Assembly: GCA_021793235.1 (NCBI GenBank)
Contig: JAJYTD010000001.1
Location: forward strand, 1-64,000
Direction of reading: 5' to 3'
Source of the DNA: Actinomycetes bacterium
GTDB taxonomy: Bacteria; Actinomycetota; Actinomycetes; Streptosporangiales; Streptosporangiaceae
DNA length: 64,000 nucleotides
Below, one piece after another: positions 45,714 to 49,219 of this stretch. The notes under the pieces were generated by a model that saw nothing but the letters and a program-made list of their open reading frames with translations, searched no databases and was not told the origin of the DNA. Position numbers and translations under genes: made by a program. The stretch's first letter is position 1. Every line of letters begins with the position of its first letter.

Positions 45714-45777
45714 CGCCGATCTTGACTTTGTGCACGTGTGAATGTGTTCGCTTACGTGCACAAAGTCAAGATCGGCG
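45714..45777. repeat. perfect 24-bp inverted repeat between convergent genes
   Basis: 24 bases (45714-45737) are repeated exactly in inverse orientation (45754-45777) around a 16-base loop. The arms contain GATCTTGACTTTGTGCACGT. The hairpin follows the DedA-like gene, and its right arm overlaps the last codons and stop of the acetyltransferase gene. It could be a bidirectional terminator, but there is no T-run. It resembles the hairpin at 176-233. Confidence 0.85.
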
Positions 45778-46344
45778 CGAAGCAGCATCACCGCACACCA
45801 CGGCCGATGGCCCGGGGAAGTCCTCCGGGACGGCATCCATCAGCAACTCATCGACAGGCTTCCCCAGCCAGTAGCCGGCCTTGCGCAGGCGCCCCGCATG
45901 GCGGAAACCCGCTCTACCATAGGCGGCGATTCCTGCGGTGTTGGGTTCCAGGACCTTGAGCCAGACCATGCGCAACGCGGCCAGGTGGAAAGCCCAGTCC
46001 AGGGTGAGGCGGGAGGCCTCGGCCGCATATCCCTTACCGCGCTCCTGCGGGGCCAGGACCATGACGAACTCGGCAGTGTGCACGAACCTGTTGATCTGTA
46101 GCGTTGTTATCCCGATCGGGACCATGCCGTCCAGACGTACCACCTCGAACTGCGGGTAGCTCTGGTTGCCGCGCTGGCGTTCCCACCCGGCAGCGCGGGT
46201 CTCCCAGGACTGGGGTGCTTGATTGCCGTACCCCAGGATGGTGCCCGGGTCGTTCTCCCAGGCGTGGTACTCGGGCAGCATCTCCCGGCGAGGCATCCCC
46301 AACGCGAGAATCTGACCGAACAGCAGGACGTGCGGCTCACTCAA
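45766..46344 (-). CDS. GNAT acetyltransferase of the lasso peptide cluster
   Basis: 192 residues from a TTG with GGAGAA six bases upstream, overlapping the stop of the preceding gene by eight bases, so the two are coupled. The GNAT core is present: FVMVLAPQERGKGYAAEASRL contains the acetyl-CoA loop (QERGKGYA). The C-terminal part LKVLEPNTAGIAAYGRAGF is typical too. In albusnodin-type clusters an acetyltransferase modifies a Lys of the lasso peptide. The candidate core peptide upstream has Lys at position 10. Substrate assignment is inference. Confidence 0.85.
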   Translation of the reverse strand: MSEPHVLLFGQILALGMPRREMLPEYHAWENDPGTILGYGNQAPQSWETRAAGWERQRGNQSYPQFEVVRLDGMVPIGITTLQINRFVHTAEFVMVLAPQERGKGYAAEASRLTLDWAFHLAALRMVWLKVLEPNTAGIAAYGRAGFRHAGRLRKAGYWLGKPVDELLMDAVPEDFPGPSAVVCGDAASRRS

Positions 46345-47482
46345 TGCCGTTCTCCAGGTTCTTACCCGGCAGCGCCGGGCCATCGGTTGTGTAGATAGGG
46401 GTGTAGAAGCTGATCGTGGGATCCTCTCCCACCGGGCGTCCACTGCTGTCCGTGATCCAGGCGTGCAGTCGTACCGGATCGGTAGCAACCCCGTGGCGCC
46501 ACTCGGCCCGCCGCCCGACCAGGGCGAGCAGCACCGCGACCGCCACGGACTGCTCCAGGCACGCCCAGCGGGCCGGGAGTAAGGCGGACATCCTCCTGAC
46601 AGCGTTCACCGCGGCGTGGGTGCGGGCGTCCTCGGCAGGTGTCAATCGGCGTCCGATGCAGGCCAGCCAGACCATCCGGGCGAACCTTCTGCGTCGGGGG
46701 CCGCACACCAGAGCGGTGACGGTCATCGCCATAGCAGGCAGCGAGGCCAGGCGCCACCCGATCCCGGCCTCGCTCGGGCGGGTGAGGGCAGCGTTCATCT
46801 CTCCAGTCCCCCAGGAGACACCGGCGCTCTCGTGCTGGACGACGAGTAGCCTGCCACGGTCGTCAGGTAGGGAGGGCCGCAGTTCGGTACGGCCGGTTCG
46901 GTAGTCGACGAGCACACAGGCGTGCTCGGTGAGCACCGCGACCGTGGACGACCGCGTCATACCGCGGCCTGCCGGGGAGCGTCCCATCGCGGTGGCGGGG
47001 TATTGCGTACGGCGTGCAGCCACATCTGGGTGCCCAACGTGGTAAGCAGGTGCGCCCATGGAACCCGGCACGAAACAGATTCGGTCTATGCCGGATCCGG
47101 TCAGGGCAGCCAGCGCACGCGAGCTGGAAGCCCACACCACCAAGCCCTCATTGGTGCGGGTGGTGTACACCGGGCACGCGCCGGAGATGTCGGTGATGAC
47201 CTCCACCGCCCTCCCCGCGTGGCGAACAGAGATGAAAGATCCGGTCCAGTCTGCGGTCGCGGCGGCAAGGTCAGGGTCATTAGCCGCGGCGGCCAACTCT
47301 GGACCACTCGCCGAGCAGGGACCAATAACGGCCAGGCGAGAGCCGGAATTGGAGAAGGTGCGGATGTATTGGTGCTGCCATGCGCCCACCGTCCATAGCG
47401 GAGGGTCGGTCCACAGCAGTCTGGCGTCTGCTGGGACAGGGGAGCGCGGCGCTCTCGGGGCGCAGCCGCCGATCCATCTCAT
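46337..47482 (-). CDS. fused lasso-type protein: cyclase N-terminal domain plus B1/B2-like leader processing part
   Basis: 381 residues. ATG with a full AGGAGGT upstream. Residues 1-130 (MRWIGGCAPR..., DWTGSFISVRHAG, TDISGACPVYTT, VWASSSRALAAL) match the N-terminal glutaminase-like domain of lasso macrolactam cyclases of the albusnodin/ikarugamycin type. Residues 180-200 (VAVLTEHACVLVDYRTGR) look like a remnant of a B1 (RRE) domain. Residues 290-365 are a B2 transglutaminase-like peptidase with ACLEQSVAVAVLL (Cys308), RLHAWITD (His340) and GRPVGED. The ATP-pyrophosphatase half of the cyclase, with its SGGxDS loop, is absent. The protein therefore looks like the result of an internal deletion, unless the cyclase is supplied elsewhere. 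Confidence 0.75.
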   Translation of the reverse strand: MRWIGGCAPRAPRSPVPADARLLWTDPPLWTVGAWQHQYIRTFSNSGSRLAVIGPCSASGPELAAAANDPDLAAATADWTGSFISVRHAGRAVEVITDISGACPVYTTRTNEGLVVWASSSRALAALTGSGIDRICFVPGSMGAPAYHVGHPDVAARRTQYPATAMGRSPAGRGMTRSSTVAVLTEHACVLVDYRTGRTELRPSLPDDRGRLLVVQHESAGVSWGTGEMNAALTRPSEAGIGWRLASLPAMAMTVTALVCGPRRRRFARMVWLACIGRRLTPAEDARTHAAVNAVRRMSALLPARWACLEQSVAVAVLLALVGRRAEWRHGVATDPVRLHAWITDSSGRPVGEDPTISFYTPIYTTDGPALPGKNLENGIE

Positions 47483-47545
47483 AAGACCTCCTGGAATCCC
47501 CGGGATGGCGGTCCAAGAATGGGCCGCCATCCCGGGGAGAACGGA

Positions 47546-47659
47546 TCAGTCGTAGGGCGACTGCTTGTTCTCGACGCTCTGGTCGTCGTTACCTTGAGTC
47601 AGCGCGGCCGCGTCACCGAGTTCGATCACGGCAGGGACTTCTTCGGGCTGCTCTTCCAT
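47546..47659 (-). CDS. lasso peptide precursor, albusnodin-like
   Basis: 37 residues, too short for routine gene calling. ATG with AAGGGG four bases upstream. The leader begins MEEQPEEVP and ends DAAALTQ, with Thr at the penultimate position as in lasso leaders. The predicted core is GNDDQSVENKQSPYD: Gly1 can form a macrolactam with Glu8, and Lys10 is the position reported, as I recall, to be acetylated in albusnodin. The gene ends 63 bases before the processing gene on the same strand. The AT-richer region upstream holds an inverted repeat. Confidence 0.8.
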   Translation of the reverse strand: MEEQPEEVPAVIELGDAAALTQGNDDQSVENKQSPYD

Positions 47660-47825: not shown

Positions 47826-48665
47826 TCAGCCGCCAACGTTCTCCGCGGCGCGCTTGAGTGTGGCGCGGGCCTCACCGTTGAACCGGGCTCCGGATGAGGC
47901 CATCTGGAAAACGTGGAGGTACTGTTCGACCTCACTCTGATGGGTCAGTGTCAGTTCAGCAGAAATCGTCTCAATAATTACTGATGCATCATCTTGTATC
48001 CAGAACCCGTGAAGGGGGAGGTAAGGTGGCGAGGCGTCGAAGGGAATGATTCCAAGAGAAACGTTGGGAAGGCCGGAAGCGGTTATCAACCGGTCGATCT
48101 GCCCCATCATCACGCCCCGGTCACCACGCCGGTGACATACGGCCGCCTCACTGACGAGGAAGCGGAACCGCTTATCTCGCCGGTAGAGGACACCCTGGCG
48201 TCTCATCCGCTGTTCGACCGCGTCCCCGACGCTGGAGGCGGACCCGTTTTTGCGGTTGACCGACTCCAAGACGGCGTGCGCGTAGCCGGGTGTCTGGAGT
48301 AACCCTGGGATGATCATCGGCTCGAAGACACGGAAGAGACGAACGCGCTCCTCGTCGGAGGCCAGGCGTGATTGGATGCCGTCCAACCCGCCATGGAGCT
48401 GGCGCTTCCACTCGACCCACATCGACTCCAGGGCATTGAGCCGGCTGATGAGGTCGGCGGCCGTACCAGTGTTGCCGCAGGCCTGCGCCCAGGCGGTGAC
48501 CTCAGCCACGCTGGGAGTCTGGCGGCCTGTTTCGATCTTGGAGACCTTCGGTTGGCTCCACGCCAGCCGCTCCGCGAGCTGTGTTCCGGTCAGCCCTGCT
48601 GAGTTCCGTAGCTCGCGGAGCCGTCTCCCCAGATCGTGGCGGGCGCGATCAATGCTGTAGGTCAC
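47826..48665 (-). CDS. XRE family regulator with DUF5753
   Basis: 279 residues from a GTG overlapping the stop of the previous gene (GTGA). The N-terminal HTH (about 12-65: LGRRLRELRNSAGLTGTQLAERLAWSQPKVSKIETG) is followed by the long DUF5753 domain with FEPMIIPGLLQTPGYA and GVMMGQIDRLI. Such WhiJ-like regulators are abundant in actinomycetes near small partner genes. It probably controls its own cassette and perhaps the lasso genes downstream. Confidence 0.93.
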   Translation of the reverse strand: MTYSIDRARHDLGRRLRELRNSAGLTGTQLAERLAWSQPKVSKIETGRQTPSVAEVTAWAQACGNTGTAADLISRLNALESMWVEWKRQLHGGLDGIQSRLASDEERVRLFRVFEPMIIPGLLQTPGYAHAVLESVNRKNGSASSVGDAVEQRMRRQGVLYRRDKRFRFLVSEAAVCHRRGDRGVMMGQIDRLITASGLPNVSLGIIPFDASPPYLPLHGFWIQDDASVIIETISAELTLTHQSEVEQYLHVFQMASSGARFNGEARATLKRAAENVGG

Positions 48666-49219
48666 CTAGGTATTGAACCGTTTGCTCGTGTCAGGGTGTA
48701 GTCGCTGTGCTGGATGGCGTAGTGCAATGCGATGTCCCGCCACTGACAGTACTGTGCGATCGCAGTCGGGTCGTCGATCCTTTCGAGCTCGCGGGGCACG
48801 TCATCACCATCGAAGTGCAGGATGCAGGCCCACCGGCTGTCGAACAGCCAGAAGTCGATCTCGGGAAGCTGTTTCACCGCGGGATGGTGGCGGGGAAGCC
48901 ACCGTATGTCCTCACCCGCTTCAACGTTGAACCGTGTGACCGCGTGTTCCCAGGTGATGTAGTCGCTCAGCGGTTCCGAGATGATGCGGACCCGCTGCCA
49001 GATCTTGCCCTCCTGGCGGCATGCGGTGACGTTTTGGTGCCAGGGGGAGGTGCGGGCGTGGTCCTCCTTGCGCCCGAGGTCGCCGGTGGAGAGGAAATGC
49101 CGGATGGTTTCCTCCTCCTCAGCGACGTTGTAACGGTCGCGGACTTCGAGCTTCCAAGCGGTGTGCTCGAACTCGGTGAACTGCCGGTCGAACTCATCTT
49201 CGGTGAGGAGCCTGCGCAT
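48662..49219 (-). CDS. DUF6879-type protein
   Basis: 185 residues. MRRLLTEDEFDRQFTEFEHTAWKLEVRDRYN at the start and FDGDDVPRELERIDDP near the end match my memory of DUF6879 proteins that accompany XRE/DUF5753 regulators. Function unknown. It overlaps the regulator by GTGA and follows the 66-residue gene after 3 bases, so the three genes form one transcript. Confidence 0.8.
   Translation of the reverse strand: MRRLLTEDEFDRQFTEFEHTAWKLEVRDRYNVAEEEETIRHFLSTGDLGRKEDHARTSPWHQNVTACRQEGKIWQRVRIISEPLSDYITWEHAVTRFNVEAGEDIRWLPRHHPAVKQLPEIDFWLFDSRWACILHFDGDDVPRELERIDDPTAIAQYCQWRDIALHYAIQHSDYTLTRANGSIPR

Follow-up and report, generated by a model that had tools for sequence, protein, structure and literature searches.

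Lasso peptide cyclases need an ATP-using, asparagine-synthetase-like domain for activating the acidic side chain that closes the ring. The locus studied here raises the question of whether a cluster of about 1.9 kb can make a lasso peptide at all. It lies in a 64,000-nucleotide stretch of actinomycete DNA (the window), where three genes in a row on the minus strand encode a precursor peptide, a 381-aa open reading frame (ORF) and a GNAT acetyltransferase. A preliminary description had placed the three genes correctly and read them as a working cluster of the albusnodin type in a compact, unusual form. That last reading found no support, as the catalytic part of the cyclase is deleted and the genome holds no substitute. 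We consider it highly probable that an albusnodin-type (Lys-acetylated) lasso cluster recently lost its function through a single deletion of ~1.15 kb, a length not divisible by three, inside its cyclase gene. The locus is most likely a recently disabled remnant, not a compact working cluster; its acetyltransferase gene is intact and may serve in resistance.

Precursor, B1-B2 and acetyltransferase genes

The precursor gene (positions 47546 to 47659, minus strand) encodes 37 residues, which read MEEQPEEVPAVIELGDAAALTQ followed by the predicted core GNDDQSVENKQSPYD. The leader ends in ALTQ; its Thr at −2 and the Gly1, Glu8 and Lys10 of the core are as previously described. Assignment to the albusnodin family was also right: the precursor reaches 52.2 bits with the profile NF033525 ('albusnodin family lasso peptide'; cut-off 30), and alignment with the precursors of six Nocardiopsis clusters, to which it is 58–84% identical, shows the acidic residue 8 and Lys10 of this family. 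Upstream lies an HTH_31/DUF5753 regulator gene (47826 to 48665, minus strand; Pfam) whose product shows 68–75% identity to regulators at the equal position in the Nocardiopsis clusters. The regulator gene and a DUF6879 gene, overlapping by 4 bp, together occupy 47826–49219.

Read from its original ATG, the B1-B2 gene (46337 to 46960, minus strand) encodes a 207-aa protein combining B1 (leader binding) and B2 (cysteine protease), which scores 80.1 bits against NF033537 (cut-off 33) and is 53–66% identical to its relatives. The window protein retains the Cys, His and Asp residues that are invariant across the B alignment (RWACLEQS, RLHAW and ATDP). The AlbT-like GNAT gene (45766 to 46344, minus strand) is coupled, as had been claimed, its TTG start codon overlapping the stop codon of B; its product matches PF13302 (E = 8e-14) and PF00583, is 76–81% identical to the Nocardiopsis cluster GNATs and falls among cluster GNATs in our tree. 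Precursor, B1-B2 and GNAT genes are all complete. The conservation of all three genes of the locus in Nocardiopsis clusters is far beyond chance.

A near-perfect palindrome at 45714–45777, with 24-nt arms (CGCCGATCTTGACTTTGTGCACGT), a loop of 16 nt and an RNA fold z-score of −8.1, extends into the end of the GNAT gene. The arm motif has 40 matches in the genome at up to 2 mismatches, against 0 for a reversed control, and many of these are inverted pairs with compensating differences. The palindrome is one copy of a repeat dispersed through the genome, either REP-like or a terminator.

The fused reading frame and the missing part of the cyclase

Profile searches and alignment to relatives resolved the 381-aa ORF (46337 to 47482, minus strand) into a cyclase N-terminal fragment, an out-of-frame cyclase tail and B1-B2. 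NF033561 ('albusnodin/ikarugamycin family macrolactam cyclase') matches it only over positions 1–133 of 561, with 111.7 bits against a cut-off of 300, while NF033537 (lasso B2) matches its C-terminal end with 78.6 bits (cut-off 33). The ORF therefore lacks a complete ATP-dependent macrolactam cyclase with its asparagine-synthetase-like domain. The N-terminal fragment of ~134 residues (47081 to 47482, minus strand; boundary uncertain by a few bases) is 45–60% identical to relatives. Residues ~1–137 and ~139–381 of the window protein align ~1.15 kb apart in an intact related cluster (L016, positions 1905 and 3057). Reading across the joint in three frames recovered the end of the cyclase in a frame other than that of the fused ORF: the last ~40 codons (46957 to 47082, minus strand) read ESVSCRVPWAHLLTTLGTQMWLHAVRNTPPPRWDAPRQAAV followed by a stop and match the C-termini of the L016 and L028 cyclases. 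The deletion joint lies at the 5' end of this tail, near 47082, and its stop codon overlaps the original B start (46960) as ATGA.

These alignments indicate that the cyclase has lost roughly residues 135–516 through a deletion of ~1.15 kb whose length is not divisible by three; the in-frame joining of the N-terminal fragment to B arose by chance. The cluster is short because this part of the cyclase gene, including the catalytic asparagine-synthetase-like part, has been deleted. Its size had been rightly described as below the usual, intact clusters measuring ~3.0 kb. The 381-residue product, described as a cyclase-N/B1/B2-like protein, does carry a cyclase N-terminus and B1/B2, but it is not a compact enzyme, since the catalytic domain is gone. 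The preliminary description had staked its reading on similarity of this protein to lasso cyclases or B2 proteins and on a homologous precursor in related clusters. Both were found, and neither probes for the missing cyclase domain.

We searched the whole genome (a draft assembly of 4.8 Mb in 119 contigs, completeness 99.97%) for a replacement. No asparagine-synthetase (Asn_synthase) domain was found anywhere in it, and NF033561 had no match besides the window fragment, in a search that matched 268 of 299 family genomes. The missing 387-residue cyclase stretch likewise had no match anywhere in the genome, in a search that had no positive control of its own. With no ATP-using cyclase domain anywhere in the genome, the predicted macrolactam cannot form. 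The deleted enzyme is needed for the predicted product, 15 residues long with one water lost and one acetyl gained, so that a threaded, Lys-acetylated peptide is not expected; genome mining guided by the precursor, B2 and GNAT matches would predict a product that cannot be made here, and a mass-spectrometry search of the strain would most likely find nothing.

Elsewhere in the same genome (contig C14, L072 2126–2299) lies an isolated B2 fragment of 57 residues, ~64% identical to the B protein of another albusnodin clade, with no cyclase, precursor or GNAT adjoining; it is the remains of a second lost lasso cluster.

Cyclase loss and acetyltransferase retention in related genomes

The closest clusters are all in Nocardiopsis and comprise regulator, precursor, ~560-residue cyclase, B1-B2 and GNAT, spanning ~3.0 kb from precursor to GNAT. 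This gene order is common to six clusters, four with an uninterrupted cyclase of ~560 residues and two with a cyclase frameshift. The four intact ones, from Nocardiopsis alkaliphila YIM 80379 (L033), N. kunsanensis DSM 44524 (L034), N. algeriensis CECT 8712 (L035) and Nocardiopsis sp. FIRDI 009 (L036), share with the window an orthologous regulator, precursor, cyclase N-terminal part, B and GNAT in identical order; they differ in having the full cyclase and are ~1.1 kb longer. The window regulator, precursor, cyclase N-fragment, B and GNAT diverge from the six relatives about as much as the relatives do among themselves (N-fragment, 45–60% identity to relatives versus 42–69% among them; B, 53–66% versus 46–73%), and comparison with the six found no stop or frameshift in the remaining segments. 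Given this normal divergence and absence of decay, the loss of the cyclase looks recent; the deletion was seen in one genome, of a genus represented by one species in the comparison set. In N. kunsanensis the intact cluster is immediately followed by a second GNAT gene (L034 6596–7141), which belongs to another albusnodin clade and groups with an orphan GNAT.

In 343 species of the family we located albusnodin-type precursors, B genes and GNATs and mapped the cyclase, B and GNAT genes around them. Related loci were recovered with a GNAT alignment, peptide patterns from the 381-aa protein being too variable to find any. All three genes were intact at 25 loci. At 12 loci, the window among them, the GNAT is intact and the cyclase broken or missing, and at none is the cyclase intact and the GNAT broken. 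The 11 other loci retain a frameshifted cyclase (G263, and G289, which in addition is divided over two or more contigs), cyclase fragments (G271 contig 4), only a broken B or B fragments (G233 contig 202, G223, G093, G242, G260 and G283 contig 105) or the GNAT alone (G245 and G283 contig 418). Two identical GNAT copies in G260 were entered once, and two divergent GNAT-only loci on a long outer branch of the tree (G076 and G124) were left out of the orphan count. B and GNAT have similar lengths, and a broken B beside an intact GNAT occurred 8 times in the family, the reverse 0 times (two-sided sign test, p = 0.008). In the albusnodin clusters of this family the acetyltransferase repeatedly outlives the cyclase, and it is this recurrence, not the compact form, that gives the locus its interest.

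Three further family loci have a truncated cyclase and no GNAT (G193 contig 16, G158 and G004). At the last of these (L089 4136–5727), a cyclase without its first ~225 residues and a partial B come immediately after an albusnodin-type precursor, a complementary kind of truncation.

The trend is weaker in Streptomyces than in the window's family. A GNAT-anchored sample of 394 Streptomyces genomes contained 13 intact loci, one of which runs into a contig edge, and seven with an intact GNAT and a broken or missing cyclase (L039 from S. lichenis, L212, L213, L215, L221, L223 and L225); L213 has an internal in-frame cyclase deletion of ~209 residues. Five more loci (L231–L235) are GNAT-only and may represent a separate GNAT family. 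At L236 and L237 the GNAT is frameshifted and the cyclase truncated or fused. A second, B-anchored sample of 267 genomes yielded L255, with cyclase and B intact and the GNAT broken; it is one clear counterexample to the trend, in a genome with a second cluster whose GNAT is intact (L228). An 830-codon ORF at L237, joining most of the cyclase to B, was considered as a natural fusion and is read as decay, the GNAT there being frameshifted.

Our reading of the window as a cyclase deletion is supported by the cyclase match ending at 133 of 561, by the C-terminus in another frame and by the absence of a cyclase elsewhere, and further by the similar losses beside an intact GNAT at the 11 other family loci and seven in Streptomyces. 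The other explanations fare poorly. It is very unlikely that B1-B2 and GNAT make a linear, leader-free, Lys10-acetylated peptide for which the cluster is maintained. Precursor, B1-B2 and GNAT are intact and of normal divergence, and acetylation in albusnodin is thought to act on the precursor (PMC9266682); a recent deletion, however, predicts equal conservation, and other broken-cyclase loci usually lose B too, which argues against selection for a linear product. An assembly error at the joint, with a full cyclase in the living strain, is conceivable in a draft of 119 contigs but has a similarly slight probability: the missing 1.15 kb is on no other contig of this nearly complete assembly, the window is the start of a contig of at least 399 kb and not of the 8-kb level, and the cyclase losses that arose independently in relatives lend plausibility to a real deletion. 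That the fusion alone makes an acetylated lasso peptide is hardly credible, for although the ORF is open and the undecayed precursor, N-fragment and B would also fit a functional fusion, the entire ATP-using domain is missing from ORF and genome, the two halves are linked by cyclase sequence translated in the wrong frame, and no natural cyclase-N/B fusion was found among the 343 family genomes.

Possible role of the acetyltransferase and comparison with known clusters

If the deletion reading is correct, a single frame-changing event of ~1.15 kb inside the cyclase gene would have inactivated the cluster, leaving at most leader removal and acetylation of the core lysine, which would give a linear peptide and no lasso. 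With lower confidence, selection may still keep the GNAT, which could protect a non-producer against the peptides of neighbours, just as the GNATs of the triculamin and lariocidin systems protect the producer by acetylating the peptide. Orphan GNATs branch from within the cluster GNATs at several points of the tree, and their pairwise dN/dS values (~0.05–0.2, ~0.1 between orphans) equal those of cluster GNATs. Purifying selection on the orphans is supported by these values, which fall short of proof because part of the signal predates cluster loss.

The repeated retention of the GNAT, together with lysine acetylation serving as self-resistance for triculamin and lariocidin (PMC13352647) and proposed as such for lariocidin (PMC11451635), suggests that the window GNAT may confer resistance, a role that would outlast production. 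One proposal, to which we give a little under an even chance, is that acetyltransferases of the albusnodin type generally persist as stand-alone resistance genes once their clusters have decayed; the window would be an early stage, in which a former producer is now a resistant non-producer. Somewhat more doubtful, yet a serious contender, is the explanation that GNATs survive in broken clusters not for resistance but by chance, as mutations hit the longer cyclase more often, or because they serve some unrelated function. The cyclase is three times the length of the GNAT, L236, L237 and L255 in Streptomyces pair a broken GNAT with an intact B, and the resistance role of this GNAT clade is only putative; the one-sided family comparison with the similar-sized B and the cluster-like dN/dS between orphans count against it. 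Should the resistance proposal be true, an orphan GNAT of this clade would be a marker of a resistant non-producer, and tests of the intact clusters for antibiotic activity would be worthwhile.

The nearest described system is the albusnodin cluster of Streptomyces albus DSM 41398 (albA, albC, albB and albT; Zong et al. 2018, as summarized in PMC9266682). The window shares with it B1-B2, a coupled GNAT and the precursor family, in which residue 8 is acidic and residue 10 is Lys, and has Nocardiopsis relatives with the same gene order; unlike it, the window retains only the first ~134 residues of its cyclase and an out-of-frame tail, and ring closure is lost. The window cluster descends from this kind and is not a functional member of it. 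Removal of albT abolished albusnodin production (PMC9266682); acetylation, described as required for production, is suggested here to serve also as resistance. The triculamin and lariocidin clusters differ from the window in their precursors, and the resistance role of an albusnodin-type GNAT is only putative, but in these clusters too a GNAT is encoded with the lasso genes, and there the producer is protected by lysine acetylation (PMC13352647; PMC11451635).
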